Assembly (NCBI RefSeq): GCF_900188205.1
Contig: NZ_FZOH01000001.1
Span: 654,359-718,358, forward strand
Origin: Geodermatophilus saharensis
Lineage (GTDB): Bacteria > Actinomycetota > Actinomycetes > Mycobacteriales > Geodermatophilaceae
DNA length: 64,000 bases
Direction: 5' to 3'
Part shown: positions 4,142 to 53,567 of the stretch, in pieces
Layout: each line of letters begins with the position of its first letter
Numbering within the stretch: the first letter of the stretch is position 1
The notes under the pieces: model-generated
Seen by the model: the letters and a program-made list of their open reading frames with translations, nothing else
What the model was told of the DNA's origin: nothing
The model's database searches: none
Program-made: the position numbers and the translations under genes

Positions 4142-4145
4142 CGGA

Positions 4146-4199
4146 GGACCCCGTCCTCCCCACCCCTCGCAGGCTCAGGACGGGCCCCGGGACGGGGCC
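4146..4199 (+). terminator. Structured post-stop element, copy A
   Basis: First of five related ~54-nt elements in the window. Outer stem GGACCCCGTC (4146-4155) pairs with GACGGGGCC (4191-4199), leaving an unpaired A; the core contains CCCTCGCAGGCTC. It starts 5 bases after the tsaC stop codon and probably terminates the prfA operon. Confidence 0.7.
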
Positions 4200-4241
4200 G
4201 CTCCCGTCGCTCAGGTCACGCTCCGGGACCGGCCCGGGCGA

Positions 4242-4247
4242 TACCGT
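4242..4247 (+). promoter_or_regulatory. Possible -10 box upstream of wecA and the atp genes
   Basis: TACCGT follows terminator copy A and would give a leader of about 95 bases to wecA. There is no recognisable -35 box. It may drive wecA and the following small membrane gene. Confidence 0.35.
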
Positions 4248-4349
4248 GGTGGGACCGCCCTGTCGTCTCGCCCCGGGAGCACCGTCGCGATGAGCTCCTC
4301 CGCCGCGCGCACGGCCCGGGTCCCGCACCGGGCCGGGCGGGGCTGAGCC

Positions 4350-5663
4350 GTGCGCGAGTACGCCGTCGTCCTGCTCGTGGCCGCCGTGGTCACCTACCTG
4401 GCCACCCCGGTGGTGCGGGTGGCGGCGGTCCGGCTGCGGATGATGGCCGCGCCCCGTGAGCGCGACGTGCACGTGATCCCCACTCCGCGCGGGGGAGGGG
4501 TGGCGATGTACCTCGGCGTGGCCGCCGCGGTGCTGGTCGCCACGCGGCTGCCCGCGCTGCAGCGCACGTTCGACGACTCGCAGACCGCCGCGGTGCTCGT
4601 CGCCGGCGGGCTGATCTGCCTGCTCGGCGTCCTCGACGACAAGTTCGGCCTCGACGCGCTGACCAAGCTGACCGGTCAGATCGCCGCGGCCGGCGTCATG
4701 GTGCTGCTCGGCGTGCAGCTGGCCTTCCTGTTCCTGCCGGTCGCCGACATCGGGACCATCTCCTTCGGCCCGGACGTCGGCGTGCCGCTGACCATCCTGC
4801 TGACGGTCATGACCGTCAACGCGCTGAACTTCATCGACGGCCTCGACGGGCTGGCCGCGGGCGTCTCGGCGATCGCCGCGCTCGCGTTCTTCGCCTACAG
4901 CTACAACCTCAGCATGGTCGGCTACGACGAGGTGGCCAGCGCCCCGGCCCTGGTCACCGCCGTGCTCGCCGGCGCCTGCCTGGGGTTCCTGCCGCACAAC
5001 TTCAGCCCGGCGCGGATCTTCATGGGCGACTCGGGCTCGATGCTCGTCGGGCTCGTGCTCTCCGCGGCCGCCGTGAGCGCCACCGGCCGCGTCGACGCGC
5101 AGACCTTCGACTCCGCGGCCAGCCTGCTGCCGCTGGCGCTGCCGCTGCTGGTACCCATCGCCGTGCTCTCCATCCCGTTCACCGACCTGGTCCTGGCCGT
5201 GGTCCGGCGGACCCGCCGCGGGCAGTCGCCCTTCTCGCCCGACAAGATGCACCTGCACCACCGGCTGCTGGCCATCGGCCACTCGCACCGCCGGGCGGTG
5301 CTGACCATGTACTTCTGGGCGGCTCTCCTGTCCTTCGGCGCGGTGGCACTGTCGATCACCGGCGGGACGGCGGAGCTGCTCGTCGTGATCGGAGTCCTGC
5401 TCGCCGTGGGTGTCGTCGTCGTCCTGAGCCCGCACACGCGGCGGGCCGCCCGCGAGGCCCGGGCGGCCGAGATCGCCGCCCGGCGACGGCGCAGCCGGGC
5501 CGCGCACCCCACCGCCCGCGCGAGCCGCACGCGGGACGGCCGGCCCGCCGGCCCGGAGACGCCGACCGCACCCCCGTCGTCACCCGGGCCGACCGCGCCC
5601 GGACCGACCGCGCCCGAGCCGACCGCGCCGCGCGCGGCCGGCGCGGGCCAGGGCCTCCGGTGA
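4350..5663 (+). CDS. wecA: Undecaprenyl/decaprenyl-phosphate GlcNAc-1-phosphate transferase
   Basis: Polytopic membrane enzyme of the MraY/WecA family that moves GlcNAc-1-phosphate from UDP-GlcNAc to the polyprenyl-phosphate carrier; in mycobacteria this begins the arabinogalactan linker. Diagnostic motifs: LDDKFGL (D96-D97), NFIDGLDGLAAG (from N160), IFMGDSGS (around 224-230) and the cytoplasmic HLHHR. About eleven membrane segments are predicted. Residues beyond about 375 form a Pro/Thr/Ala-rich tail (PTAPGPTAPEPTAP) not needed for catalysis. GTG 4350 has no good ribosome binding site. The carrier lipid and acceptor in this organism are unknown. Located just before the atp genes as Rv1302 is. 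Confidence 0.9.
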   Translation: MREYAVVLLVAAVVTYLATPVVRVAAVRLRMMAAPRERDVHVIPTPRGGGVAMYLGVAAAVLVATRLPALQRTFDDSQTAAVLVAGGLICLLGVLDDKFGLDALTKLTGQIAAAGVMVLLGVQLAFLFLPVADIGTISFGPDVGVPLTILLTVMTVNALNFIDGLDGLAAGVSAIAALAFFAYSYNLSMVGYDEVASAPALVTAVLAGACLGFLPHNFSPARIFMGDSGSMLVGLVLSAAAVSATGRVDAQTFDSAASLLPLALPLLVPIAVLSIPFTDLVLAVVRRTRRGQSPFSPDKMHLHHRLLAIGHSHRRAVLTMYFWAALLSFGAVALSITGGTAELLVVIGVLLAVGVVVVLSPHTRRAAREARAAEIAARRRRSRAAHPTARASRTRDGRPAGPETPTAPPSSPGPTAPGPTAPEPTAPRAAGAGQGLR

Positions 5664-6136
5664 GCGCGCGCCGTCCGGGGACGGAGGTCCCCTGGGACCT
5701 GTCGTTCCTACGCGTGGGTGCGCTGGTGACCGGCGCGGTCGCCGTCGTCGCCGCGCTGGTCGCCGGGCTCATCGCGGGCTGGGCCGACGCCGCCGGCGTG
5801 CTGGTGGGCGCCGCGGTGGTGACGGCGTTCTTCGTCGTCTCCGGCGTCGTCATCGCCTGGGCCGGCCGGATCGACGACACCTTCACGCTCCCCGCGGCCC
5901 TGGGCACGTTCTTCGTCAAGGCCGTCGTCCTCTTCGGGATCCTGAACGCGCTCCCGGAGGACGGCTGGCTCGACCGGCGCACCATGGCCTGGTCGGTCAT
6001 CGTCGGCGCACTGCTGTGGAGCGGCATCCAGCTGCGCTGGGTCTGGACCCGGCCGCTGTACTACGTCACACCGCCGCCGCCACCCGGTCAGGGGAGCCTC
6101 CCCCCGGCACCGGACGGGACCGCGACGCGCGGCTGA
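5660..6136 (+). CDS. Small membrane protein preceding ATP synthase genes (AtpI-like position)
   Basis: 158 residues with four predicted membrane segments (roughly 20-42, 45-67, 78-100 and 108-127) and a Pro/Gly-rich cytoplasmic tail (TPPPPPGQG). GTG 5660 overlaps the wecA stop as GTGA. Position matches M. tuberculosis Rv1303, annotated as an ATP synthase I-like protein. AtpI-type proteins help assemble the c-ring, but sequence similarity here is weak and the role is inferred from position. It has no catalytic motif. Confidence 0.75.
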   Translation: MSARRPGTEVPWDLSFLRVGALVTGAVAVVAALVAGLIAGWADAAGVLVGAAVVTAFFVVSGVVIAWAGRIDDTFTLPAALGTFFVKAVVLFGILNALPEDGWLDRRTMAWSVIVGALLWSGIQLRWVWTRPLYYVTPPPPPGQGSLPPAPDGTATRG

Positions 6137-6142
6137 TAGTGT
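6137..6142 (+). promoter_or_regulatory. -10 box, leaderless arrangement, atpZ
   Basis: TAGTGT ends 7 bases before ATG 6150. Initiation at or next to the A of the start codon would give a leaderless transcript, and so a promoter for the atp operon proper. Confidence 0.5.
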
Positions 6143-6149
6143 CCCGGCG

Positions 6150-6479
6150 ATGGCCGAGGACGATCCCGTGCGCGGGGACACCCGGCCTCGACCTGCGCGA
6201 CCGTCCGCTCCCCGGGGCAGTGGTGCCGAGACCGGCTACGCCGTCATCGGCACGATGATCTCCGGGATGGCCGTGTGGGGCGGGGCGGGCTGGTTGCTCG
6301 ACCGGTGGTTGGACACGCGGGTGTTCGTGCCGGTCGGCATCATCCTCGGCATGGCGGCGGCCATCTACCTGGTCGTCGCCCGGTACGGCGGGCTGCCACC
6401 GACACCCGGTGCACCCGAGAAGAGCGACACCCCGGGCGGACGACGGAGCCGGCCCAGGACGCAGAAGGGACAACGGTGA
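6150..6479 (+). CDS. atpZ: AtpZ/AtpI family protein
   Basis: 109 residues. The core YAVIGTMISGMAVWGGAGWLLDRWLDT...IILGMAAAIYLVVARYG has the paired membrane helices and the GWLLDRW loop of the AtpZ/AtpI family, which is linked to F1Fo assembly and, in some bacteria, divalent-cation transport. The N- and C-terminal tails are disordered and basic. No ribosome binding site is visible; a -10 box 7 bases upstream suggests leaderless translation. Its stop overlaps the atpB start as GTGA, so the two are translationally coupled. Confidence 0.85.
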   Translation: MAEDDPVRGDTRPRPARPSAPRGSGAETGYAVIGTMISGMAVWGGAGWLLDRWLDTRVFVPVGIILGMAAAIYLVVARYGGLPPTPGAPEKSDTPGGRRSRPRTQKGQR

Positions 6480-7303
6480 CCTCCAGCGCCCTCGCGCTCG
6501 CTGACGTGCTCGCGGTCGAGGAGAGCAGCGGGGACGGTTTCCAGGCCCCCGGTCTCAGTGAGTTCTACCCCGAGCCCATCGCCGAGTTCTCGCTGCTCGG
6601 CGTCGACTTCAGCATCACCCGCATCACGCTGATCCTGTGGATCGCGACCCTGGCGATGCTGGCGTTCATGGTGGCGGCCTCGCGCCGGCCGCAGATCGTG
6701 CCGGGCAAGCTGCAGTTCGTCGGGGAGAGCGGCTACTCGCTGGTCCGCGACGGCATCGCGCGCGACGTCGTCGGCCCCAAGGGCCTGCCGTTCGCGCCGT
6801 TCCTGGCCGCGCTGTTCTTCTTCATCCTCGCGAACAACCTGATGTCGATCGTCCCGTTCGCGCAGATCTCCCCGATGTCGAAGTTCGCGTTCCCGCTCGT
6901 CCTCGCGCTCATCTGCTGGGTCATCTACATCTACATCGGCATCCGCGAGCAGGGCGCCGGGCGCTACTTCAAGGACATCCTGTTCCTGCCCGGCGTGCCC
7001 AAGCCGATGTACGTCCTGGTCACCCCGATCGAGATCCTGCAGAACTTCGTCGTGCGGCCGTTCACGCTGGCCGTCCGGCTCTTCGCCAACATGTTCGCCG
7101 GCCACATGCTGCTGGTCGTCTTCGCGCTCGGCGCGGTCTACCTGTTCAGCCGGGACAACTTCTCGATCGTGTTCGGCCCGGTCTCGGCGCTGATGATGAT
7201 CGTGATGACGTTCTTCGAGCTGCTGGTCATCTTCCTGCAGGCCTACGTCTTCACCGTCCTGATGGGGACCTACCTCAACGGCTCCATCGAGGCCGAGCAC
7301 TGA
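6476..7303 (+). CDS. atpB: ATP synthase Fo subunit a
   Basis: Membrane subunit that forms the proton half-channels against the c-ring. 275 residues, five to six membrane helices. The essential arginine is R201 in PFTLAVRLFANMFAGH, and the last helix has FELLVIFLQAYVFTVLMG. GTG 6476 was chosen because it overlaps the atpZ stop (GTGA) and gives the family length; longer in-frame reading lies wholly within atpZ. First core gene of the run atpB-E-F-H-A-G-D. Confidence 0.97.
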   Translation: MTSSALALADVLAVEESSGDGFQAPGLSEFYPEPIAEFSLLGVDFSITRITLILWIATLAMLAFMVAASRRPQIVPGKLQFVGESGYSLVRDGIARDVVGPKGLPFAPFLAALFFFILANNLMSIVPFAQISPMSKFAFPLVLALICWVIYIYIGIREQGAGRYFKDILFLPGVPKPMYVLVTPIEILQNFVVRPFTLAVRLFANMFAGHMLLVVFALGAVYLFSRDNFSIVFGPVSALMMIVMTFFELLVIFLQAYVFTVLMGTYLNGSIEAEH

Positions 7304-7353
7304 CGGCCTGACTGCACCACCCTGAGCGCACCACCCGCACGACCCCCGCAAGC

Positions 7354-7373
7354 CGCCCGGCGGACACCGGGCG
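7354..7373 (+). promoter_or_regulatory. Intercistronic hairpin before atpE
   Basis: CGCCCGG (7354-7360) pairs with CCGGGCG (7367-7373), 7 bases before the AGGAGG site of atpE. A 5'-stabilising or processing hairpin could help raise c-subunit output, which must exceed that of its neighbours. Inference from position. Confidence 0.35.
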
Positions 7374-7397
7374 ACGACACAGGAGGAACACCTCGTC

Positions 7398-7625
7398 ATG
7401 GATCTTCTCGCTGAGCTGACCGGCAGCATCGGCTCCGTGGGCTACGGCCTCGCCGCCATCGGCCCCGGCATCGGCGTCGGCATCGTGTGGGCCGCCTACA
7501 TCCAGGCCACCGCCCGCCAGCCCGAGTCGGCCGGCCTGACCCGCACCTACGCCTTCCTCGGGTTCGCCCTCTCCGAGGCGCTCGCGCTCATCGGCTTCGT
7601 CGTCCCCTTCGTCTTCGGCATCTGA
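7398..7625 (+). CDS. atpE: ATP synthase Fo subunit c
   Basis: 75-residue hairpin of two membrane helices that builds the proton-driven rotor ring. The glycine-rich first helix (GLAAIGPGIGVGIV) and the ion-carrying carboxylate E60 (FALSEALALIGF) are clear; the Q/ES ligand set of sodium-type rings is absent, so this is a proton ring. The polar loop is RQPES. AGGAGG at 7381-7386 is the strongest ribosome binding site in the operon though its spacing to ATG is long (11 bases). Confidence 0.97.
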   Translation: MDLLAELTGSIGSVGYGLAAIGPGIGVGIVWAAYIQATARQPESAGLTRTYAFLGFALSEALALIGFVVPFVFGI

Positions 7626-7675
7626 TCCCCGCCTCCGGGTAGGGACACAGGGCAACCAGACAGGACACTGAGACC

Positions 7676-8257
7676 ATGAGAATCCTCGCCGCGGAGAGCG
7701 CCAACCCGCTGCTGCCGCCGCTCGGTGAGATCATCATCGGCCTGATCGCGTTCGCGGTCGTGCTGTTCGTCTTCTTCCGCTTCGTCGCGCCGCGCTTCGA
7801 GCAGGTCTTCCGGGCCCGCCGCGAGGCCATCGAGGGCGGCATGGAGCGGGCCGAGGCCATGCAGGCCGAGGCCAAGGCCGCGCTCGAGCAGTACCGCGCC
7901 CAGCTGGCCGAGGCCCGCACCGAGGCCGCGCAGATCCGCGACCAGGCGCGCGCCGAGGGACAGCAGATCCTCGAGGAGCTGCGGGCGCAGGCGCAGGAGG
8001 AGTCGGCGCGGATCGTCGCCCGCGGCGAGGAGCAGCTGGCCGCCAACCGGCAGTCGGTGGTCAACCAGCTGCGCGGCGAGATCGGTGCGCTCGCGGTCGA
8101 CCTCGCCGGCCGGGTGGTGGGCGAGTCCCTCGAGGACGAGGCGCGCCGCCGCGGCACCGTCGACCGGTTCCTCGACCAGCTCGACGGCATGAGCGCCGGG
8201 GGTGCCTCCGACGGCCGGACCGGCAGCACCGTATTCGTCCCCGGGACGGACCGCTGA
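7676..8257 (+). CDS. atpF: ATP synthase Fo subunit b
   Basis: Peripheral-stalk subunit, 193 residues. One N-terminal membrane helix (about 18-38, IIIGLIAFAVVLFVFFRFV) is followed by a long charged helix (FRARREAIEGGMERAEAMQAEAKAALE and beyond) that dimerises or pairs with delta. Last base of its TGA is the first base of the atpH ATG, so translation is coupled. Confidence 0.96.
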   Translation: MRILAAESANPLLPPLGEIIIGLIAFAVVLFVFFRFVAPRFEQVFRARREAIEGGMERAEAMQAEAKAALEQYRAQLAEARTEAAQIRDQARAEGQQILEELRAQAQEESARIVARGEEQLAANRQSVVNQLRGEIGALAVDLAGRVVGESLEDEARRRGTVDRFLDQLDGMSAGGASDGRTGSTVFVPGTDR

Positions 8258-9075
8258 TGGACGCCGCCAGCCGGGAGGCGCTCGCGGTCACCCGCGAGCG
8301 CCTGGCGGCGACCACCCGCGGCGCCGCGGGTCCGGGGCTGCTGGCCCTGGCCGACGAGCTGTTCGCCGTCGCACGGCTGCTCGACGGGCAGGTCTCGCTG
8401 CGCCGGGCGCTGTCGGACGCGTCGGTGAAGCCGGTCGACCGCGCGGGCCTGGCCCGCCGGATCCTCGGCGGGAAGGTCTCCGAGGCCACCGTCGACCTGG
8501 TCGAGACGACGGCGCGGCAGCGCTGGTCGCGGCCGCTGGACCTCGTCGAGGCCACCGAGGTGCTCGCCACGGAGGCGGGACTGGACGCGGCCGAGGCGCG
8601 CGGCGAGCTCGAGGGCGTCGAGGACGAGCTGTTCCGGTTCGGCCGGATCGTCGCCGGCGACCCGGAGCTCTCGCGCATCCTCTCCGACGACCGCGCGCCC
8701 GCCGCCGGCAAGACGGCGCTGCTCGACCGGCTGCTGACCGGCCGGGTCAGCCCGGTCAGCGAGCTGCTGCTGCGCAACACGCTGACCGCGCGGCACGTCG
8801 GCAGCGCCGAGAACCGGATCGAGCGGCTCTCCACCGCGGCGTCGGCGCGGCGCGGCCGGTCGGTCGCCCACGTCACGACCGCGGTGCCGCTCACCGCCGC
8901 GCAGGAGCGGCGGCTGCAGGCCGTGCTCGGCCGGATCTACGGGCGCACCATCGGCCTGCAGGTCACCGTCGACCCCGCGGTGCTCGGCGGTCTCGTCGTC
9001 CGCGTCGGCGACGAGGTCATCGACGGCAGCGTGGTGAACCGACTCGAGGCCGCCGGCCGCCGGCTCACCGGCTGA
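8257..9075 (+). CDS. atpH: ATP synthase F1 subunit delta
   Basis: Joins the peripheral stalk to the top of F1. 272 residues, longer than the ~177 of E. coli delta but normal for most actinobacteria outside Mycobacterium, where delta is fused to a b-like domain. C-terminal OSCP motif region [27 protein letters not shown] is conserved. Overlaps atpF by one base (TGATG). Confidence 0.95.
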
Positions 9076-9142
9076 CCGGCGCCCACCCAGACCACCAGAG
9101 ACCACCCAGCAGCACCACCCAGCAGGGAAGAGGACGCGACCC

Positions 9143-10759
<1,617 letters not shown>

Positions 10760-10760
10760 C

Positions 10761-11705
10761 GTGGCCGGATCGCTGCGCGCGCTGCGGCGCCGCATCCGCT
10801 CCACGCAGTCGACGAAGAAGATCTTCTCGGCGCAGGAGCTGATCGCCGGTGCCCGCATCGTGCGCGCCCAGGCCCGGGTGGAGGCGTCCAAGCCCTACGC
10901 CCGCGAGATCACCCGCGTGCTGTCGGCGCTGGCGTCGTCGGCGTCGCTGGAGCACCCGCTGCTCAACGAGCGGACCGGCACCGGGCGGGCGGCGGTCCTC
11001 GTGGTCACCTCCGACCGCGGGTTCGCCGGCTCGTACAACGTCAACGTGCTGCGCCGCACCGAGGAGCTCCTCGGCACGCTGCGCCAGCAGGGCAAGGACC
11101 CGGTGCTGTACGTGATCGGCCGCAAGGGCGAGACGTACTACTCCTTCCGCGACCGCCCGGTCGAGGAGACCTTCACCGGGTTCTCCGAGCAGCCGGCCTA
11201 CTCCGACGCCCAGGAGGTCGGCCGGTCGCTGATCGACGTCTTCGCCCCCGGTGACGACGCCGGCCGCAGCGCCACGGTGGACGAGGTGCACATCGTCTAC
11301 ACCGAGTTCGTGTCGCTGCTGAGCCAGGTGCCGGTCGCCCGGCGGCTGGCCCCGGTCGACACCGAGGAACTGCAGCGCGACGACGAGGACTCCGCGGACG
11401 GCACGGGCGTCGGCCCGTCCGGCGTGCCGACGTCCTACGAGTTCGAGCCCTCGCCCGACGCGCTGCTCGACTCGCTGCTGCCCAAGTACGTCACCACCCG
11501 CATCTACGCGGCGCTGCTCGAGGCGGCCGCCTCGGAGTCCGCGTCGCGCCGGCGGGCGATGAAGTCGGCCTCGGACAACGCCGAGGAGCTGGCCAAGAAC
11601 CTCTCCCGCCAGGCCAACCAGGCCCGGCAGGCCGAGATCACCCAGGAGATCAGCGAGATCGTCGGCGGCGCCGACGCGCTGGTCAGCGCCGGCGCCGACG
11701 ACTGA
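10761..11705 (+). CDS. atpG: ATP synthase F1 subunit gamma
   Basis: Central rotor shaft, 314 residues. N-terminal helix [22 protein letters not shown] and C-terminal helix [29 protein letters not shown] form the coiled coil inside F1. Between them, around residues 207-226, is an acidic insert ([18 protein letters not shown]) of the kind that in actinobacteria is linked to latent ATPase activity. GTG start lies one base after the atpA stop. Confidence 0.96.
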
Positions 11706-13226
<1,521 letters not shown>

Positions 13227-13243
13227 CGCAGCACCGGCCAGTC

Positions 13244-13279
13244 GACGGCCGGGCGCCCTCCACCGGGTGCCCGGCCGTC
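13244..13279 (+). terminator. Strong hairpin terminator after atpD
   Basis: A 15-bp stem with one G-U wobble (13244-13258 with 13265-13279), loop TCCACC, begins 17 bases after the atpD stop. It separates atpD from atpC. Confidence 0.7.
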
Positions 13280-13494
13280 GTCGTCTCCCGGGTCCGGCGG
13301 CGGGTGGGGCCGGCCGGTGTCCGTGCTCGGCCGGTCACCGTGCGTCGAGACGGGCCACGGCGCGCCCGATCGGGTGGTTGGACACCGGTCGGCCGTGGGC
13401 AGGTGTGTGGCGCACAACCCTCAAGCGCGGGAGCCTTTCTGCCGATCGAGCAGACGGCGCCCGGAGGGACCGGTCGCGCGGCGCAGGAGACACG

Positions 13495-13707
13495 ATGGAC
13501 TGGCTGGACGGGGCGAGCGCTCAGGGCACGGTGAGCGGACTTCCGGTCACCACCCCGGACCTGGAGTGGTCCTGGCCGCCGTCGGCTCCCGTCTCGCACG
13601 TCACCGACATCCGGTACGACACCGAGGAGTGGGCTCCGGCCTCCACGGTCCGCCACCCCTGGGTGCGCGTGGGCCGCTGGACGCTGCTCTACCGCCGGGC
13701 GGCGTGA
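13495..13707 (+). CDS. Unknown 70-residue protein between atpD and atpC
   Basis: I do not recognise this gene. The protein ([11 protein letters not shown]...[12 protein letters not shown]) is soluble, with no signal or membrane segment, and rich in Trp (6 of 70) and Pro. AGGAG (13485-13489) sits 5 bases before ATG 13495, which supports translation. It lies after the atpD hairpin and before an atpC -10 box, in a place where most bacteria have no gene. Conservation in related genomes would decide whether it is real; a chance ORF is possible in DNA this GC-rich. Confidence 0.6.
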
Positions 13708-13743
13708 GGGAGGACCCGTCCCGGACCCCGGGGACCCCGCCGC

Positions 13744-13749
13744 TAGAGT
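13744..13749 (+). promoter_or_regulatory. -10 box for atpC
   Basis: TAGAGT lies 37 bases after the stop of the 70-residue gene and 73 bases before the atpC GTG, giving a leader that holds the GGAGGA ribosome binding site. It suggests atpC can be transcribed on its own. Confidence 0.45.
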
Positions 13750-13822
13750 GGGCGGGTCCGTCGCCGTGCCTGCCCGGCCGGCGTCCCCAGCACCGCAGCC
13801 CCGGTGGGCCCGGAGGAGTGTC

Positions 13823-14212
13823 GTGGCGACCCTGCAGGTCGAGTTGGTGGCCGTCGAGAAGACGATCTGGTCCGGCGAGGCCAGCATGGTCATCGCCCGC
13901 ACCACCGAGGGGGAGATCGGTGTCCTGCCCGGCCACGCCCCGCTGCTCGGTGAGCTCGCCCCCGGCGGCGTCGTCACCATCCGCAGCACCGAGGGCCCCG
14001 ACGTGGTCGTGGCCGCCCACGGGGGCTTCCTGTCGGTGACGCCGCAGGGGGTCTCCATCCTCGCCGAGAACGCCGAGATCAGCTCCGACATCGACGTCGA
14101 GCGCGCTCGCGAGGCGCTGCGCCGCGCCGAGAGCGCCGGCGACGACCCGGAGTCCCTGGCCGCCGCGCGCCGGGCGCAGTCCCGGCTGCGGGCCGCCGGC
14201 CAGGCCGTCTGA
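13823..14212 (+). CDS. atpC: ATP synthase F1 subunit epsilon
   Basis: Rotor-foot subunit that couples gamma to the c-ring and can inhibit ATP hydrolysis. 129 residues: N-terminal beta-barrel ([22 protein letters not shown]...[13 protein letters not shown]) and a C-terminal helical pair (about 86-129). GTG 13823 was chosen because GGAGGA (13812-13817) precedes it; an in-frame start at 13748 would add 25 unconserved residues. Unusually it is not directly after atpD. Confidence 0.95.
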
Positions 14213-14297
14213 GCGCGACCTCCGTGCGCCCGGGACCCCGCTCCACCAGGCCCGGGCTGCTGCGCGGGGGTCGGGTCCTTCCCCGCGCTCCCCGCCG

Positions 14298-14699: not shown

Positions 14700-14704
14700 T
14701 CGAA

Positions 14705-14759
14705 GGACCCTCGTGCCCCCGACGCTCGCGAGCTCGCGCCGGGCCCCTTCACGAGGGCC
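14705..14759. terminator. Structured post-stop element, copy C (bidirectional)
   Basis: Outer stem GGACCCTCGTG (14705-14715) pairs with CACGAGGGCC (14750-14759), with the same unpaired A as other copies; the core contains GCTCGCGAGCTCGCGCCGGG. It fills the gap between the convergent DUF2550 and pduO genes. Confidence 0.7.
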
Positions 14760-14770
14760 GTTCCAGGCGG

Positions 14771-15343
14771 TCACCTGTGCGCGCCGGGCTCCCAGAGCAC
14801 GTCGCCGTCCGGGTTGGCCTCCCGGGCGAGGATGAACAGCAGGTCCGACAGCCGGTTGAGGTAGCGCGCCGTCTCGGCGTTGGTCCGCTCGCCGTCGGCG
14901 GCCAGCAGGGCCCAGACGCTGCGCTCGGCGCGCCGCACCACCACCCGTGCCTGGTGCAGCAGCGCCGCCAGCGGGGTCCCGCCGGGCAGCACGAAGCTGG
15001 TCAGCGCGGGCAGCGCCTCGTTGTGCACGTCGCAGGCGGCCTCGAGCCGCTCGGTGTACGCGGCGGTGACCCGCAGCGGCGGGTGCGCCGGGTCGGGGAC
15101 GACCGGCGTCGCGAGGTCGGCGCCGACGTCGAACAGGTCGTTCTGCACGCTGCGGACCAGCTCGACCAGCTCCGGTGACGGCGACCCCAGCGCCAGCGCG
15201 ACGCCGAGCACGCTGTTGGCCTCGTCGACGTCGGCGTAGGCGACCAGCCGGGGGTCGGTCTTCGCGACCCGGCTCATGTCGCCGAGGTGCGTCTGCCCGG
15301 CGTCACCGGTCTTCGTGTAGATGCGGGTGAGCCGGACCGTCAT
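14771..15343 (-). CDS. pduO: Cob(I)yrinic acid a,c-diamide adenosyltransferase, PduO type
   Basis: Transfers adenosyl from ATP to cob(I)alamin, making coenzyme B12. 190 residues, PduO fold. The N-terminal ATP-binding motif TRIYTKTGDAGQTHLGD and the later RRAERSVWAL (arginines of the active site) and NRLSDLLFILAR are visible. ATG 15343 gives this conserved N-terminus and has TAGGCT 8 bases upstream. Its product is the cofactor for the mutase encoded at 17163. M. tuberculosis has the homologue Rv1314c next to murA. Confidence 0.94.
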   Translation of the reverse strand: MTVRLTRIYTKTGDAGQTHLGDMSRVAKTDPRLVAYADVDEANSVLGVALALGSPSPELVELVRSVQNDLFDVGADLATPVVPDPAHPPLRVTAAYTERLEAACDVHNEALPALTSFVLPGGTPLAALLHQARVVVRRAERSVWALLAADGERTNAETARYLNRLSDLLFILAREANPDGDVLWEPGAHR

Positions 15344-15351
15344 GGCGCCCG

Positions 15352-15357: not shown

Positions 15358-15390
15358 TGCGGTCGCCGGAGGCGGGTCGCACGGCCGCCG

Positions 15391-15396: not shown

Positions 15397-15402
15397 GGCC
15401 CG

Positions 15403-21806: not shown

Positions 21807-21860
21807 GGACCCCCTGCTCCCCGCCACTCGCAGGCTCGCGGCGGGACCCTGCAGGGGGCC
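21807..21860. terminator. Structured post-stop element, copy B (bidirectional)
   Basis: Outer stem GGACCCCCTGC (21807-21817) pairs with GCAGGGGGCC (21851-21860), with one unpaired A. The inner stem CCCGCC/GGCGGG surrounds ACTCGCAGGCTCGC. It occupies the gap between convergent crotonase and lipoprotein genes. Confidence 0.75.
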
Positions 21861-38234: not shown

Positions 38235-38289
38235 GGACCCCCTCCTCCCCACCACTCGCTCCGCTCGCGGCGGTGCCCTGGAGGGGGCC
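38235..38289. terminator. Structured post-stop element, copy D (bidirectional)
   Basis: Outer stem GGACCCCCTCC (38235-38245) pairs with GGAGGGGGCC (38280-38289), one unpaired A; the core is ACCACTCGCTCCGCTCGCGG. It lies between the convergent cnoX and metallopeptidase genes. Confidence 0.75.
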
Positions 38290-41338: not shown

Positions 41339-44218
41339 TCAGCCCTCGTGCAGGAGCCAGACGGTGCCCAGCGGCGGAGCGGACACGGTGGCCGAGAACG
41401 GCTGGCCGTGCCAGGACTCCTCGACGGCGTCGACGCCGCCGTAGTTGCCGACACCGGAGCCGCCGTAGCCCTCGGCGTCGGTGTTGAGCACCTCCCGCCA
41501 GCGGCCGCCGCGGGGCAGGCCGATGCGGTAGCCGTGGTGCGGGGTGCCGGAAAAGTTGCAGACGACGGCCAGCGCCTGGCCGGCGGTCTGCCCGCCCTCC
41601 GGGGTCCCGCCGCCGGCGCCGGACTCGGCCGCCTGGGTGGGCGTGGGGACGTCGGCCACCTTCGGCGTGCCGTAGCGCAGGAAGGTGAGGACGTTGCCGG
41701 ACGCGTCGTTGGCGTCGATCCACTGGAACCCGGCCGGGTCGACGTCGAGGGACCACAGCGCCGCGATCTCGCGGTAGCGGGCGTTGAGGTCGGTGACCAG
41801 CTGCAGCACGCCGCGGTGGGCGGGGTCGTCGAGGTGCCACCAGTCCAGCGAGCGGCTCTCGGCCCACTCGCCGTCCTGGGCGAACTCCGAGCCCATGAAC
41901 AGCAGCTGCTTGCCGGGGTGGGCCCACATGTAGGCCAGGAAGCCGCGGACGCCGGCCAGCTGCTGCCACCGGTCGCCGGGCATCTTCCGCAGCAGCGAGC
42001 CCTTGCCGTAGACGACCTCGTCGTGGCTGATCGGCAGCACGTAGTTCTCGGAGTAGGCGTACATCATCGAGAACGTCAGCTGGTTGTGGTGGTAGCTGCG
42101 GTGCACCGGCTGCCGGGAGACGTAGGACAGCGAGTCGTGCATCCAGCCCATGTTCCACTTGAACCCGAAGCCCAGGCCGCCCAGGTGGGTGGGCCGGGTG
42201 ACACCGGGCCAGGCGGTGGACTCCTCGGCGATGGTGACCACGCCCGGCACCTCGCGGTAGACGGTCGCGTTGACCTCCTGGAGGAACGACACCGCCTCGA
42301 GGTTCTCCCGCCCGCCGTACTGGTTGGGCACCCACTCGCCGTCCTCGCGCGAGTAGTCGAGGTAGAGCATCGAGGCGACGGCGTCGACCCGCAGCCCGTC
42401 GATGTGGAACTCCTGGCACCAGAACAGCGCGTTGGCGACGAGGAAGTTGCGCACCTCGGTGCGGCCGAAGTTGAACACGAAGGTGCCCCAGTCCGGCTGC
42501 TCGCCGCGGCGGGGGTCGTCGTGCTCGTAGAGGGCGGTGCCGTCGAAGCGGCCCAGCGCCCAGGCGTCCTTCGGGAAGTGCGCCGGCACCCAGTCGACGA
42601 TGATCCCGAGACCGGCCTGGTGGGCCCGGTCCACGAGGTAGCGCAGGTCGTCGGGGTGGCCGAAGCGCGAGGTCGGGGCGTAGTAGCTGGTGACCTGGTA
42701 GCCCCAGGAGCCGCCGAAGGGGTGCTCGGCGACCGGCAGGAACTCCAGGTGGGTGAACCCGGCGGCGACGGCGTAGTCGACGAGCTCGTCGGCCAGCTGC
42801 CGGTAGGACAGCCCCTGCCGCCAGGAGCCCAGGTGCACCTCGTAGATGCTCATCGGCCGCTCGTGCCAGCCGCCGCGCGCGCGCTCGGCCAGCCACGCGT
42901 CGTCGTTCCACTCGTAGCTGGACTCGGTGACGACCGAGGCGTTGTGCGGCGGCACCTCGGTGGCGAAGGCCATCGGGTCGGACTTCTCCCGCCACACGCC
43001 GTCGGCGCCGAGCACGTGGAAGCGGTAGCGGCTCCCGACCCGGACGCCCGGGACGAAGATCTCCCAGACGCCGATCGACCCGAGCTGGCGCATCGGGTAG
43101 AGCCGGGCCTCCCAGTAGTCGAAGTCGCCGGTGACCTTCACGCCCTGCGCATTGGGCGCCCACACCGCGAAGGAGACGCCCTCGACGGTGCCGCGCGGGG
43201 TGTCGTAGCGGCGCACGTGGGCGCCGAGCACGTCCCACAGCCGCTCGTGCCGGCCCTCGCCCACCAGGTAGCGGTCGAGCTCGCCGAGCGTGGGCAGCCA
43301 CCGGTAGGGGTCGTCGACGGGGAAGGTGTCCGCGCCGTAGGCCACCTCGAGCCGGTAGTCGCCGGGCTGCGCCGGGAGCCGGGCCTCGAAGATGCCGCGC
43401 GGGTGGATCTGGCGGGCATCGTGGCGGGCGCCGTCCTCGGCGACGACGACCACGCCGGACGCGTCGGGCCGCAGTGCGCGCACGACCCAGCCGTCGCCGG
43501 AGGGGTGGGCGCCGAGGACGCGGTGCGGGTCGCGTGACCAGCCGTCGACGATGGCGCGCAGGTCCTCCTCGGACACGGCGTCGGCCGGGACCGCGGTGCC
43601 CTCGCCGCCGGCGCCGGAGGCCGGCCCGCCGTCGGGACCCGTGCCGGTCCCGGCGTCCTCGCCGGGTGCCTGCGGCGCCATCGGCTGCGCCGCGTCGGGC
43701 TCCGCCGCGGGCGCGCCCGTGGGCGAGCCGGGCTCGGCGATCGGCGCGGGGGCGACGACCGGTGCGGTCGTGCCGCCCTGCTCGGCGACGACGTCGGCGG
43801 CGGGCACGGCCGCGGTGTCGGCCGCGGTCCGCTTCGCGGGGGTCCGCTTGCGGGTGGCCTTCACCGGCGCCTCGCCCTCGGCGGCCTTCTTCGCGGTCCG
43901 CTTCGCCGTCTTCCGCGGGGCGGCGGGCTCGGCGGCGCCGTCCCCGTCGGCGACCGCGGCCGCCGTCGCGGCAGGCGTCGCCGCAGCCGTCGCCTTCCTG
44001 GCCGGGGCCTTCTTCGCCGGTGCCTTCTTGGCCGCGGCCTTCTTCGCCGGTGCCCGCTCGGCCGGGCCCGCGTTCACGACCGGCTCGCTCTCGGCCGCCT
44101 GGGCCTGCGCGGCCCGCTCGTCGACCACCCGCTGCAGCTCCTCCTTGGAGGCCGGCGCCTCGGCGGTCTCGTGGGCGGTGGGCGTGCCGGGAGGGGGTGT
44201 CGAGTCGCTCGTCGTCAT
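41339..44218 (-). CDS. glgB: 1,4-alpha-glucan branching enzyme with basic N-terminal extension
   Basis: Makes alpha-1,6 branches in glycogen or the GlgE alpha-glucan. 959 residues. The family part begins near residue 217 ([24 protein letters not shown]) and has the normal ~740 residues: early-set domain, GH13 barrel with [40 protein letters not shown] (nucleophile Asp), IAEESTAWP (acid Glu) and [13 protein letters not shown]. Residues 1-216 are extra: a Lys/Ala/Pro tract (57-131; [24 protein letters not shown]) like histone H1 or HupB tails, then an acidic Pro/Gly linker. Last gene of glgE-treS-mak-glgB. Confidence 0.95.
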
Positions 44219-44342
44219 CGTCGCTTGCCGTCCTCTGCCGTCGTCTGGTGCCGTCGTCTCGTCTGCGTGCTGGGTCTCTCCGGGCGGTGCGCCGTGCGGT
44301 GGAGCCGTGCCGGTGGCCGTGCGGTCGCCCCGGGGCGGGCGT

Positions 44343-45742
44343 TCAGGACTCCCCGGCGGTGAGCCGGGACAGCGACTGCAGCGGGATCATGAGCCAGTTC
44401 GGCCGGTTGCGCGCCTCGTAGACGCACTCGTAGACCGCCTTGTCCGCCTCGAAGGCGCGCAGGAGGGGGGAGTCCCCGCACGGGTCCATCCCGCTCGCCG
44501 CCGAGTAGCCGGAGCAGAATGCGCCGCGGTTGCGCACTGCCCACTCCTGCGCCCGGTACGCGCGCTGGGCGTCGTCGGGTTGCTCCACGAGCATGTGACG
44601 TGCGGCGTAGTCGAAGCTGCGGAGCATGCCGGCGACGTCGCGCAGCGGGCTGTCGAGCTGCCGGCGCTCGGCCAGCGGGCGGGCCGGCTCGCCCTCGAAG
44701 TCGAGCACCACCCAGCCGGTCGCCGTCCGCAGCACCTGGCCGAGGTGGAGGTCGCCGTGCACCCGGTGGCGCAGCACCTCCTCGGGGCTGTCGGCGACGG
44801 CGGCGTACACCTTCCGCAGGGCCGCGAGGTGCTCCTCCAGCTGCGGGACGACGCCCAGCGCCGCCTCCAGCCGCTCGGTCATGCCCCGGGCGGTCGCGGT
44901 GAACCACTCGCGGTCGGCCGGCGCGGTCGGCAGCACCCGCGCGAGGTCGGCGTGCACCGACGCGGTGGCCGCGCCGAGCCGCTCGCTGTCCGCGGCGAAG
45001 TCCCCGCCCACCTCGTCGGCGTGCAGGTCGCCCTCGGCGTAGAGGTCGCGGACGCTGGCCGTGGCCAGCCGCCACCCGTCGCTCGCGCCCCGGACGAAGG
45101 TCTGCAGCATCGCCACCGTGGCGGGCTCGGCCGACGGGTCGGGGTCGTCGATCTCGACGTACCCCAGCAGCGGGGCGATGTGCGGGTTCTCCGTGCGCCG
45201 CAGCGCCTCGCCGATCTCCACGTCGGGGTTGAGCCCGGGCTCGAGCCGGCGGAACAGCTTGAAGATGGCGTCCTGCCCGTAGACGAGCGAGGTGTTGCTC
45301 TGCTCGGTGGACACGATGTCGCCGGGCACGCCCTCGGGGATCGGCGCGGGGTCGGTCTGGCTGCCGGCCGGGTGGAAGTGCATCGGCCCGACCGTGGCGG
45401 CGGCCGCCAGCTGGGTCAGCCACGGCGTCGTCGCGTCGCGGTCGCGCATCGCGTCGTAGGCGTAGTTCTCCCGGTCGGCGCCCTCGGCGTCCTTGGCCGG
45501 CACCGCCCCGATGAACGCGGCGTTGAGGTCCTCCTCGGGGTGCGCGCGCCAGGACAGCGGCACGAGGTAGGTCTCGACGGCGCCGTCGGTGTAGGTGACG
45601 CGCACCCGGTGCACCGAGAGCACCGGCTCGGCGCGGGAGAGGAAGAAGCCCTCCTCGCTGACGTCGGCCCACTCCCGGCCCTTGCCGCCGAACCACCGCT
45701 GGTGCGGCATCCAGTCCCGCAGCACCTCGGCCAGGGCCGTGC

Positions 45743-45746
<4 letters not shown>
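44343..45746 (-). CDS. mak: Maltokinase
   Basis: Phosphorylates maltose with ATP to maltose-1-phosphate, the donor for GlgE. 467 residues, aminoglycoside-phosphotransferase-like fold. Catalytic loop [11 protein letters not shown] and metal site [10 protein letters not shown] are clear; the N-terminal cap domain has WFGGKGRE typical of Pep2/Mak. Its ATG overlaps the treS stop (ATGA), so the two are translationally coupled; in many actinobacteria they are fused or form a complex. Confidence 0.95.
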
Positions 45747-47596
<1,850 letters not shown>

Positions 47597-47645
47597 CGGT
47601 GCGGGTCGTCCTCGCGTGTGGGTGGTCCGGGGGTGGGGCGGGCGG

Positions 47646-49673
<2,028 letters not shown>

Positions 49674-49681
49674 CCCGGCCA

Positions 49682-49687
49682 CGCTAT
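49682..49687 (-). promoter_or_regulatory. -10 box, leaderless arrangement, glgE operon
   Basis: TAGCGT on the reverse strand, 8 bases before ATG 49673; no ribosome binding site between. Confidence 0.5.
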
Positions 49688-49814
49688 CCACCGCGGGGGT
49701 CGCCCACACCTCGGCCGCCGGGGCGGGGGAGCGGACCGCGCGGAGCCGGAACCGGGAGGGTGAGACGGGGGTGGGACGCACCGGAGCCGACCTGTCCCGT
49801 CCCGCGTCGCTGGC

Positions 49815-49820
49815 TAGGCT
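49815..49820 (+). promoter_or_regulatory. -10 box, leaderless arrangement, glgP
   Basis: TAGGCT, 6 bases before GTG 49827; no ribosome binding site between. Confidence 0.5.
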
Positions 49821-49826
49821 CCCCGC

Positions 49827-52376
49827 GTGCGAGCACTGCGTCGGTTCACCGTCCGGGCGGCCCTGCCCGAGGCCCTCATGCCCCTGTCCCAGCTGGTCAC
49901 GAACCTGCGCTGGTCGTGGCACCCGGAGACCCGCGACCTGTTCGAGGCGCTCGACCCGGAGTTGTGGCGCCGCTGCAACAACGACCCGGTCAAGGTGCTC
50001 GGCGAGGTCTCCGCCGAGCGGCTGGCGGCGCTGTCGACCGACCGCCGGTTCCTGCGGCGGCTGCAGGACGCCGTCGACGACCTCGACGACTACCTGTCCG
50101 CCGAGCACTGGTACCAGTCGCTGGGCCCCGACGCCCCGCGGACCATCGCCTACTTCTCCGCCGAGTTCGGCATCACCGAGGTCCTCCCGCAGTACTCCGG
50201 CGGCCTGGGCATCCTCGCCGGCGACCACCTCAAGGCCGCCTCCGACCTCGGGGTGCCGCTGATCGGCGTGGGGCTGCTCTACCGGGCCGGCTACTTCGAG
50301 CAGGGCCTGTCGGCCGACGGCTGGCAGCTGGAGCACTACCCCTCGCTGGACCCGCACGGCCTGCCGGTCAAGCTGCTGCGCCAGCCCGACGGGTCCGCCG
50401 TCGTCATCTCCGTGCCGCTGCCGGAGGGGCGCACGCTGCACGCGCACGTGTGGCGGGCGCAGGTCGGCCGGGTGTCGCTGCTGCTGCTCGACAGCGACAT
50501 CGAGGAGAACGCCCCCGCCGAGCGGACCGTCACCGACCGGCTCTACGGCGGCGACGAGGACCACCGGCTGCGGCAGGAGATGCTGCTGGGCATCGGCGGG
50601 GTCCGGGCGCTGCGTGCCTACTGCCAGCTCACCGGCACCCCACAGCCGGAGGTGTTCCACGCCAACGAGGGCCACGCCGGCTTCCAGGGCGTCGAGCGGA
50701 TCCGCGAGCTGACCGAGTCGCACGGGCTGTCCTTCCCCGAGGCGCTGCAGGCCGTCCGCGCCGGCACGGTGTTCACCACGCACACGCCCGTCCCCGCCGG
50801 CATCGACCGCTTCCCGCGGGCGCTCATCGAGCGCTACTTCGCCGGCTTCGGGGTCCCCCTGGACCAGCTCATCCCGCTGGGCGCCGAGGAGGACCCGGCG
50901 AAGTTCAACATGGCGCACATGGGCCTGCGGCTGGGCCAGCGGGCCAACGGCGTGAGCCAGCTGCACGGGCACGTCAGCCGCGGGATGTTCCGCGACCTGT
51001 GGCCCGGGTTCGACGAGGCCGACGTGCCGATCGGCTCGATCACCAACGGCGTGCACGCCCCCACGTGGACCGCGCGGGAGCTGGTGGAGCTGGGCACCCA
51101 GACCTCCCGCGCCGGCGACCCGGTCGAGAGCCGCGGGCCGGTCTCCTTCGACGGCGTCGACCGCATCCCCTCGTCGGAGCTGTGGGCCACCCGCCGGATG
51201 CTGCGGGCCCGGCTGGTCGACGAGGTCCGCCGCCGGCTGCGGGACACCGCGCTCTCGCGCGGGGCGGCCGAGGCCGAGGTCGGCTGGACCGACGGCGCCT
51301 TCGACCCCGACGTCCTCACCATCGGCTTCGCCCGCCGCGTGCCCTCCTACAAGCGGCTCACGCTCATGCTGCGCGACCCCGCCCGGCTCAAGGCCCTGCT
51401 GCTGGACCCGGAGCGGCCGATCCAGCTGGTCATCGCCGGCAAGAGCCACCCGGCCGACGACGGCGGCAAGCAGCTGATCCAGCAGATGGTGAAGTTCGCC
51501 GACGACCCCGAGATCCGGCACCGCATCGCGTTCCTGCCCGGCTACGACATCGGGATGGCCCGCTACCTCTACTGGGGCTGCGACGTCTGGCTGAACAACC
51601 CGCTGCGCCCGCTGGAGGCCTGCGGCACCTCGGGCATGAAGGCCGCGCTCAACGGCGGGCTGAACCTGTCCATCCGCGACGGCTGGTGGGACGAGTGGTT
51701 CGACGGCCAGAACGGCTGGGCGATCCCCACCGCCGACGGCGTCGCCGACCACGACCGCCGCGACGAGGTCGAGGCCCGCGCCATCTACGACCTGCTGTCC
51801 ACGCAGGTGCTGCCGCGGTTCTACGAGACCGACCGCGACGGCATCCCGACCCGGTGGGTGGAGATGGTGCGCCACACGCTGCGCGAGACCGGCCCGAAGG
51901 TGCTGGCCACCCGCATGGTGCGCGACTACGTCGAGCAGCTGTACGTGCCGGCCGCCGGGTCGGCCCGCTCGATGGCCGACGGCGGCTACGCCCCGGCGCG
52001 CACCGAGGCGCACTGGCGGGCCCGGATCCTGGAGAGCTGGAGCGGCGTGCGCGTGGCGCACGTGGAGGCCACCGGTGCCGGGGACACCCCGGAGATCGGC
52101 TCCACGCTGGCGCTGCGGGCGGAGGTGGAGCTGCCGCACCTGACCCCGGCCGACGTCGAGGTGCAGGCGGCCTACGGGCGGGTCGACGACGCCGACGGCC
52201 TGCACGAGGTCACCACGGTCCCGATGGAGCACGAGCAGACCGAGGGCTCCCGGCACTGGTTCACCGCCACGCTGCCGCTGGAGCGCACCGGCGCCTTCGG
52301 GTACACGGTCCGGGTGCTGCCGCACTCCGAGCACCTGGCCACCCCCGCGGAGCTGGGCCTGGTCCGCAGCGCATAG
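49827..52376 (+). CDS. glgP: Alpha-glucan (maltodextrin) phosphorylase
   Basis: Releases glucose-1-phosphate from alpha-1,4-glucans. 849 residues, GT35 family, the actinobacterial/archaeal-type form with an extra N-terminal domain. Motifs: [53 protein letters not shown], and the PLP site [15 protein letters not shown] with Lys 605. Divergent from glgE, as Rv1328 is from Rv1327c. In the GlgE scheme it breaks down or trims the polymer that glgE-glgB build. Confidence 0.95.
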
Positions 52377-52400
52377 GGGAAGGGCCGGCGACCCACCCGT

Positions 52401-52443
52401 CACGCCGGTCGCAGCGCCCCCAGGGGCAGCGGCGACCGGCGTG
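52401..52443 (+). terminator. Strong hairpin terminator after glgP
   Basis: CACGCCGGTCGC (52401-52412) pairs with GCGACCGGCGTG (52432-52443); the loop holds a second stem (GCGCCCC/GGGGCAGC). It begins 25 bases after the glgP stop. Confidence 0.7.
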
Positions 52444-52481
52444 GCGGTGTCACCGGGCCGCCCACTACCGGCCGAGGTCAC

Positions 52482-52487
52482 TAGGCT
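52482..52487 (+). promoter_or_regulatory. -10 box, leaderless arrangement, FHA gene
   Basis: TAGGCT, 7 bases before ATG 52495; no ribosome binding site between. Confidence 0.5.
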
Positions 52488-52494
52488 GGCGCGC

Positions 52495-53508
52495 ATGCCC
52501 GACCGCTGTGAAGTCCTGCCCGGAGACGCCGTCGTCGCACGACGCGGCGGGGGACTGCTCTGGGTCGACGCTCCGGGCTCGCCGGCCCTCGTCGCCGCCC
52601 TGCACGCCTGCCTGGGCGTCGCCGGCCCCGGCGCCGACCGCGTGCTGGCCGCGGTGGCCTCCCAGGTCCCCGCGCTCGGCGGCAGCTCGGCGTCCTTCGC
52701 CCTCGTCCTCGTCGACTCCGAGGGCGGCTCGGGCACCGGCGTCGCGCTGTGGGCCGGCAAGGGGCAGCCCGCCGTCGACGGCGTCCCGGTCTCCGGCCAG
52801 CCGGCCGACGGGTGCACCGTGGCCGCCGGCTTCCCGCTGGGCGGCACCCTCTACGTCGGCCCCGGGCAGGCCGCGCCGTCGATGCCGCCCGGTGTCGCCT
52901 ACGACCTGCACACCGGCACCGTCCCCGGGTCCGGCGCGCTGCTGCACCTGGCCGCGCCCGCCCACGCCGGCGCCGCCGCGGCGCCGGCGTCCGCCGCGCC
53001 GTCGTCGTTCACGGCCGGTTCCGACGCCGGCTTCGCCGGTTCCTCCTCCTACGGTGCCGCCTCGGGCACGCCGTCCTACGGCTCCTCCGGCTCCTCGGTC
53101 GTGGGGTCGGCCGCCCGCGCCGACGAGGGCGAGGAGACGGCGTTCTGGAAGCCCGACACCGCCTCGGCCCCCGTGCTGCGCTTCGACGACGGCCTGGTCG
53201 TCACCGTCGACGAGGACCTCGTCCTCGGCCGCCGGCCCGACAGCCACGAGCTGGTGACCTCGGGCAACGCCCGGCCGGTGCCGATCGCCGACACGCAGAA
53301 CGTGCTGTCCTCGGCGCACGCGGCCATCCAGCGCACCGGCCGCGAGGTCACGCTGACCGACCTCGGCTCGCTCAACGGCACGCACGTCGCCGGGCCGGAG
53401 GCCACCGAGTGGACCCAGCTCGAGCCCGGCGTCGCCCACCCGCTCGCCGACGGTGACCGGCTGCTGCTCGGCTGGACGGTCATCACCTACGAGCAGCCGC
53501 AGGACTGA
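52495..53508 (+). CDS. FHA-domain protein
   Basis: 337 residues. The C-terminal FHA domain (about 230-337) contains [43 protein letters not shown] and [15 protein letters not shown], with the phosphothreonine-binding Arg, Ser and Asn (GRR, SSAH, LNGT). The N-terminal ~150 residues form an Ala/Gly-rich domain of unknown type, and residues ~160-215 are a Ser/Gly/Ala linker. Such proteins read Thr phosphorylation made by Pkn kinases; one kinase is encoded 8 kb away. In-frame start at 52441 was rejected in favour of ATG 52495, which has its -10 box. Confidence 0.88.
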
Positions 53509-53512
53509 CGAA

Positions 53513-53567
53513 GGCCCTCCCTGCCCCCACCGCTCGCACGCTCGCGGCGGGACCCTGCAGGAGGGCC
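53513..53567. terminator. Structured post-stop element, copy E (bidirectional)
   Basis: Outer stem GGCCCTCCCTGC (53513-53524) pairs with GCAGGAGGGCC (53557-53567), one extra C on the left; the core is CCGCTCGCACGCTCGCGG. It starts 4 bases after the FHA gene stop. Confidence 0.75.

Follow-up and report, generated by a model that had tools for sequence, protein, structure and literature searches.

Five hairpin elements that follow stop codons in a 64,000-nucleotide stretch of the Geodermatophilus saharensis genome (the window) are, with a probability of roughly 0.65, copies of a single mobile, palindromic repeat that resembles REPs. All five are present with the stems ascribed to them in a preliminary description, and all lie on the + strand. 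Element e1 (4146..4199) follows a Sua5/YciO/YrdC-family gene and is itself followed by a co-directional gene, Glycos_transf_4 (4350-5663). Element e2 (14705..14759) follows the TAG of a DUF2550 gene, with a cobalamin adenosyltransferase gene convergent; its right flank (14760..14773, + strand, GTTCCAG..) belongs to a longer form of the repeat and ends in TCA, the stop of that convergent gene. The remaining three follow TGA codons: e3 (21807..21860) at an enoyl-CoA hydratase-family gene, with the convergent stop 1 nt beyond the element; e4 (38235..38289) at a thioredoxin/TPR (CnoX-like) gene, facing a convergent gene; and e5 (53513..53567) at an FHA-domain gene, with a convergent gene end ~77 nt downstream. 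As had been described, the GG of the stem begins just past the stop, by 4 nt in e1, e3, e4 and e5 and by 5 nt in e2, and four of the five (e2–e5, not e1) lie between convergent gene ends.

The hairpin core of ~54–56 bp consists of an outer stem (GGACC..GGCC) with a bulged A, an inner stem and the loop CTCGCnnGCTCG; in e4 the loop contains a 3-nt spacer. Longer copies have ~80 bp in common, from CTGAnGAAGGACC through GGCCGTTCCAGCACsTCACC. The unpaired base thought to be shared by all five is a bulged A in e1–e4, while e5 has a C there. The hairpins are stable on both strands, and in all five the strand opposite the anchored gene folds more stably than the gene strand; single-copy folding z-scores were modest for e1 (-0.20, -0.67). 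Of 149 distinct rows, 113 have A.C at one inner "pair" when the gene strand is read, corresponding to G.U on the other strand.

A family nearly confined to the Geodermatophilaceae

Covariance searches bore out the proposal that the elements belong to one family with many copies at gene 3' ends. The genome itself (G000) holds at least 150 copies, a count made with model R1, whose stem columns were off by one, and a relative, G030, holds 130. Within 464 kb of the genome, in regions chosen as copy-rich, R1 and model R2 recovered the same 33 distinct elements, and R1 scores dropped from 38.9 to 21.3 bits past the last of them. Elements e1–e5 had E-values of 1e-9 or better with both models.

The repeat is abundant and nearly confined to the Geodermatophilaceae. 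It is present in 47 of 57 sampled genomes of the family, and the copies per genome in one genus were 90, 0, 91, 73, 91, 91, 26 and 89, with a scoring ceiling of ~91; G019, rated 100% complete, gave a single weak match, G039 and G003 had 4 and 5 copies, and other genomes of the family reached 130 or more. No match was found in 130 of 150 genomes of the order. Outside the family there were three matches in two genomes (two in G109, one in G118), close to contig ends, the contigs being 89,143 and 21,446 bases long, and these may represent real presence, transfer or contamination. An exact-pattern scan returned at least 113 stretches; among the matches listed, 111 came from Geodermatophilus, Blastococcus or Modestobacter, and the others were one Trujillonella and one "Frankiales" MAG. 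The exact pattern occurred in none of the viral contigs. It could be argued that GC-rich hairpins in a genome of ~75% GC resemble one another by chance, and the core motif alone is indeed not enriched in the window (10 matches with at most 3 mismatches versus 8.85 expected). However, the whole-element E-values of all five elements under both models, together with the 130 genomes of the order that had no match, refute this explanation, leaving it a negligible probability.

The preliminary description knew of no account of such a family, and comparison with Rfam agreed: no family matched the window at the gathering score, and around e3 no match was better than a weak one of E 2.6. A literature search, with most subscription papers outside it, found no description of a Geodermatophilaceae repeat family, nor was one found in the accessible part of PMC9686282, on Geodermatophilaceae genomes.

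Paired changes in the stems

The stems covary, as had been reported from the five elements. Among 27 copies from the genome itself, double-sided changes occurred in 10 of 19 pairs, with 52 double-change cells compared with 18.7 in shuffles and 0–13 in slid controls. Across 150 aligned copies they occurred in 14 of 19 pairs, with 310 double-change cells compared with 78.2 in shuffles and 6–49 in slid controls; alignment A4 was fitted to the model's structure. The pair count alone was less distinctive in the 150 copies (14 versus 11.8 in shuffles, reached in 29 of 500). The earlier statement that covariation shows the RNA fold to be selected is too strong, because the copies are paralogues of one repeat; a step that involves a DNA hairpin, or the correction of quasi-palindromes, may be what maintains the palindrome instead.

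Register and orientation at stop codons

In order to examine placement, we assembled a deduplicated set of 179 copies. The rows from the genome itself were fetched copies and 20 of 30 loci of the genome-wide search, and those from other genomes were 59 of 64, 24 of 26 and 11 of 29 entries of three lists; left out were places in the genome itself or already counted, rows that were partial or weak, and part of the 29-row list, and four copies with no recognisable anchor were excluded from the position table. Gene ends were called from open frame and third-position GC. In this sample, which is not random (its own-genome regions are copy-rich and most of its other-genome copies are top-scoring), the stop codon of the sense gene lay within 8 nt in 130 of 179 copies, at exactly 4 nt in 76, and in the other 49 no sense stop was recognised that close. 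Credible convergent gene ends flanked 113 copies within 300 nt on both sides. Of these, 94 lay within 8 nt of the sense stop, versus 28.9 under uniform insertion, and the sense stop was the nearer one in 95 and the other stop in 18. The stops at the 130 anchored copies were TGA (99), TAG (25) and TAA (6), beside an own-genome baseline of 399, 89 and 5. A SECIS or readthrough signal was set aside because TAG and TAA occur too and the lengths vary.

Classical REPs too crowd stop codons. The repeat is therefore of a known kind, with a placement rule that is unusually strict for a REP-like palindrome.

A strict distance from the stop would also suit a regulatory RNA acting at translation termination or at the 3' end, one kept by selection but repeatedly lost. 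In keeping with such a role, E. coli REPs less than 16 nt from a stop are reported, in the available portion of PMC12306157, to lower translation. However, it is the antisense strand that folds better, different and unrelated copies occupy the same site in relatives, and some gene ends, such as that of e5, carry an element in only one of six genomes; we consider this explanation improbable.

Presence, absence and nesting

The preliminary description had mentioned mobility as a side suggestion, and presence/absence at orthologous gene ends, nested copies and arrays all speak for it. We compared the five sites across six genomes, the genome itself and five relatives (85–94% identical). At each site the element was missing in at least two of the five relatives, in some cases with the stops adjacent or overlapping. 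The copies at the e3 site differ between G000 and G030, and none is found there in G015 (93.8% identical to G030), G051 or G041. At the e4 site G041 carries a reversed copy, anchored on the stop of the other gene. The ends of the Sua5 and CnoX-like genes had an element at 5 of 30 and 6 of 30 ortholog loci, respectively, these being the best-scoring loci of 57 genomes. Absence at orthologous sites could in part be loss.

These patterns bear on the earlier judgment that the elements are probably bidirectional terminators, which was not upheld. A family of terminators, or of hairpins at mRNA 3' ends, kept by selection and working mostly in both directions where genes converge, would account for the convergent ends around 113 of 179 copies, for hairpins stable on both strands and for the paired stem changes, and the repeat resembles intrinsic terminators as a GC-rich hairpin at gene ends. 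It differs from them in its conserved loop, its patchiness at orthologous ends and its lack of a T-run: no hairpin with a T-run was found in four scanned stretches containing all five elements, a scan that U-tract-free terminators would escape. A genome rated complete that has one weak match (G019) and copies nested in copies also argue against such selection. Patchiness and the missing T-run led us to reject dedicated terminators as the principal explanation, and we regard selected terminators as unlikely.

Eight nested copies, each attached to a half copy at its loop, were found with a search pattern that presupposed the loop site and of whose nine matches one (L043) was due to chance. One copy is inverted within another, and arrays have periods of 66 bp (L119) and 63 bp (L217). 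We saw no target-site duplication at junctions that are fuzzy by a few nt, and on the right the alignment of filled with empty sites is not clean.

Gene-end palindromes might instead overwrite each other by template switching, slippage or gene conversion, with no dedicated mobiliser; nested and tandem forms would then be by-products, and stop-adjacency would reflect the prior sites of small palindromes. Arrays and nested copies exist, no mobiliser was found, and other palindromes occupy some element-free sites (for example e5 in G030 and G051), all as this model would have it. At other empty sites, however, the two stops adjoin or overlap, with a few bases at most between them (for example e3 in G015 and G041), and the fixed orientation is left unexplained. 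We hold overwriting to be doubtful, if slightly less so than terminators.

Search for a mobiliser

RAYT-driven REP movement was rejected: the RAYT Y1 transposase domain (PF01797) was found in 0 of 57 genomes, in a search that was positive in 5 of 14 controls and that a very divergent enzyme could escape. Reverse transcription was likewise discarded; PF00078 occurs in 29 of 57 genomes, yet in neither G000 nor several copy-rich ones. IS110 (PF02371), also rejected, occurs in 37 of 57, including the nearly copy-free G019, and is missing from several copy-rich genomes. The replication-strand bias expected of single-strand transposition was not found in G030 (73:57, p=0.19). Two contigs of G000 were skewed (C10 25:9, C11 7:20), which may or may not follow the replication strand.

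Comparison with known repeats

Like the GTAG REPs described in the available part of PMC3733652, the repeat forms high-copy, dispersed, mostly intergenic palindromes with a bulge, which have subfamilies that differ by paired changes and which prefer gene 3' ends and convergent spaces. The same part reports that the GTAG ends of REPs supply stop codons, and the accessible text of PMC8266576 that TnpA-REP recognises a bulged single-strand hairpin. In contrast to GTAG REPs, the Geodermatophilaceae repeat is ~54–80 bp long with two stems, has no constant GTAG (a TAG-AA spacer precedes the GG in 8 of 130 stop-anchored copies), takes one orientation at a narrow stop distance and has no Y1 transposase in the 57 family genomes. 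CGTC REPs are, like it, palindromes reported without a dedicated transposase, and are defined by a CGTC tag, 8–9 bp stems, A/T first pairs and 4–5 nt loops (PMC3733652, available part); our repeat falls outside that definition, with a stem starting GG and a loop of ~10 nt. "Actinobacteria" does not appear in the main text of PMC3733652, as far as it was available. MITEs are similarly non-coding, repeated and near genes, and the TGACG/CGTCA ends of the repeat could be 5-bp inverted repeats. MITE terminal repeats are reported as 15–30 bp (PMC3733652, in part), and for the Geodermatophilaceae repeat neither parent insertion sequence nor target duplication was seen.

A model for spread

If the elements are copies of a REP-like mobile palindrome, their spread would depend on an activity supplied in trans that binds to the hairpin as its target, perhaps in the strand opposite that of the anchored gene. 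This would resemble the action of TnpA-REP on classical REPs, although no RAYT was detected. New copies would be joined by their GGACC end either to a stop codon or to the loop of an existing copy; the reading frame would still be closed at the junction, and therefore such copies would persist. The inserted hairpin would then be close to the end of the mRNA and within range of a ribosome that is terminating, and it probably has modest, secondary effects on the termination of translation, on mRNA ends or on read-through. More tentatively, and at odds we would put well short of even, the repeat may represent a new class of mobile hairpin with two targets, a stop codon (TGA, TAG or TAA) in one orientation and a single position in the loop of an existing copy. 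Its targeting of stops might be coupled to the termination of translation or to the 3' end of the mRNA, and it would be moved by something other than a RAYT or a reverse transcriptase.

Because the repeat combines a narrow register, one orientation, presence/absence sites and nested copies, the question of whether such placement is targeted or selected becomes testable. The repeat would be useful as a marker of strains and genome plasticity in Geodermatophilaceae, and it points to an undiscovered mobilising activity in actinobacteria.

Results

All five ~54-nt hairpin elements of the preliminary description were confirmed at their coordinates, namely window positions 4146-4199 (e1), 14705-14759 (e2), 21807-21860 (e3), 38235-38289 (e4) and 53513-53567 (e5). 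Common to all are an outer stem (GGACC..GGCC), which deviates at the bulge in e5, an inner stem, and CTCGCnnGCTCG in the loop. The distance from the stop codon of the anchored gene (Sua5/YciO/YrdC-family, DUF2550, enoyl-CoA hydratase-family, CnoX-like and FHA-domain, respectively) to the element is 4 or 5 nt. Placement between convergent genes, claimed for four of the five, holds for e2 through e5, e1 being the exception. An Rfam search of the window returned no match at the gathering score, with weak matches only around e3, and no description of the family was found in the searchable literature.

The genome-wide search proposed in that description, run with a covariance model built from the five copies (R1), gave at least 150 candidates in the G. 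saharensis genome (G000), all with E ≤5.8e-5. The stem columns of R1 were off by one and were corrected in a second model (R2); in 464 kb of G000, picked as copy-rich, both models found the identical set of 33 distinct copies. As 29 of these 33 were already among the R1 candidates, the genome may hold ∼170 copies in total. With E ≤0.001 as the limit, 130 matches were counted in a relative assembled in one contig (G030). R2 was positive in 47 of 57 genomes of Geodermatophilaceae; at the level of the order, 20 of 150 genomes were positive, including 18 from the family. The two positives outside it have three matches together, near contig ends (89 and 21 kb), at G109:C17:98-163, G109:C17:2600-2664 and G118:C6:468-532, and these may represent transfer, genuine presence or contamination. 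An exact-pattern scan of 84,980 species yielded at least 113 stretches; among the matches listed, the titles named Geodermatophilus, Blastococcus or Modestobacter in 111 cases, Trujillonella, a genus of Geodermatophilaceae, in one, and a Frankiales MAG in one. The element family is real and abundant. Copy number varies within a genus: eight genomes of one genus (g11) had 90, 0, 91, 73, 91, 91, 26 and 89 copies (values of about 91 meaning at least that many). For G019, a genome rated 100% complete, a wider search gave a single match (E 7.9e-4).

Changes on both sides of a pair occurred at 10 of 19 pairs among 27 own copies, in 52 cells versus 18.7 in shuffles (slid controls, 0–13), and in 310 cells versus 78.2 among 150 copies aligned to R2 (slid controls, 6–49). 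Thus, the paired changes reported earlier stand, but the selection on RNA read from them does not follow from covariation alone, since the sequences compared are paralogous repeat copies. Of 149 distinct rows, 113 had A.C on the gene strand at one inner position and 19 at a second; the opposite-strand equivalents of both are G.U pairs. Leaving aside these two positions and the two outermost, which are register-shifted, the remaining columns held 30 A.C versus 17 G.T. This asymmetry, and the better fold of the opposite strand in all five window elements, hint that the functional hairpin, as RNA or single-stranded DNA, is the one on the antisense strand of the anchored gene.

Register was scored in 179 deduplicated copies (88 own and 91 from other genomes). 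A credible gene end on the sense strand, that of the anchored gene, lay ≤8 nt from GG, the first bases of the outer stem, in 130 copies and exactly 4 nt away in 76. Gene ends flanked 113 copies on both sides, and of these, 94 lay ≤8 nt from the sense stop and 16 from the other stop; a uniform insertion point predicts 28.9 versus the 94 seen, a number reached in 0 of 20000 simulations. The nearer stop was the sense stop in 95 and the other in 18. Anchoring stops were TGA in 99, TAG in 25 and TAA in 6 of the 130 copies, and the baseline, taken from credible long reading frames in the G000 stretches examined, was 399, 89 and 5. The offset depended on the triplet, with TGA at 4 nt in 75/99, TAG at 5 nt in 13/25 and at 2 nt in 9/25, and TAA at 0 nt in 3/6; therefore, some stops are completed by the first bases of the element. 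Even copies lacking a recognised sense stop had one of the three triplets in the corresponding window in 22 of 46 cases, versus 50 of 368 windows further upstream. The repeat may carry its stop triplet along, or else insert at such triplets as its target.

Among the 30 best-scoring ortholog loci per gene end from 57 genomes, the element was present at 5 Sua5 ends (e1) and 6 CnoX-like ends (e4). Across six syntenic Geodermatophilus genomes (85–94% identical), the e1 site is occupied in G000 and holds a nested pair in G037; the e2 site in G000 and G041, and nested in G037; the e3 site by different copies in G000 and G030 (G037 unmapped); the e4 site in G000, in the other orientation in G041 and by a half copy in G037; and the e5 site in G000 only. 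Element-free sites can have adjacent or overlapping stops (e3 in G015 and G041, e4 in G030), and some relatives have other palindromes at the e5 site instead. C-termini are identical or almost identical whether or not the element is present, with different last residues at e2 in G041.

Shortly after e5 lies a long near-perfect palindrome, GTGCTGCGTCCTGGCTCACCGTCGACGGTGAGCCAGGACGCAGCAC (53584-53629). Similar palindromes with both arms changed occupy the orthologous place in G030 and G051, from which e5 itself is absent. A distinct spacer, also palindromic and based on TGATCAGGTCCCCTGATCA and GTGATCAGGTGACCTGATCAC, was seen at a gene end in G017 and G032 (L105, L106), and a similar GATCAGGTCACCTGATCA stretch near the e5 site of G030; this type of spacer may represent a second repeat family.

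The left end of eight copies runs into the loop of a half copy; five of these are in G037, and G. poikilotrophus (L275), G. africanus (L277) and G. obscurus (L324) have one apiece. In G037, a further copy sits inverted within an older one. Head-to-tail arrays have periods of 66 bp (L119), 63 bp (L217, own genome) and 52 bp (L254). Unlinked own copies are alike over ∼80 bp, from CTGA..GAAGG to GTTCCAGCACGTCACC. One element recurs with its flanks at two loci of G000 (L023 on C6, L024 on C20), and judging from the identity of 203 of 217 aligned positions, this copy was duplicated together with its surrounding sequence. At another locus (L111, 1480-1790), two oppositely oriented copies flank a stretch that by eye resembles a tRNA gene.

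Y1/RAYT transposase was not detected in any of the 57 genomes searched, and a reverse transcriptase domain was not found in G000. IS110 showed no relation with the family, and there was no clear replication-strand bias.

Discussion

Di Nocera and co-workers (PMC3733652) report that the distance from convergent repetitive extragenic palindromes (REPs) to the 3′ end of each neighbouring gene is mostly <20 bp, and that GTAG ends supply stop codons. The RepRanger paper, citing an earlier study, states that E. coli REPs <16 nt from a stop lower translation (PMC12306157), and the substrate of TnpA-REP is described in a further source as a single-stranded bulged hairpin preceded by GTAG (PMC8266576). 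The present family is REP-like in behaviour, but tests for GTAG and for RAYT were both negative, and we therefore class it as a REP-like variant rather than a GTAG REP. A mobile repeat of REP-like type is the best reading of the family. Its surprising part is the strict stop-codon register, which may reflect targeting or selection.
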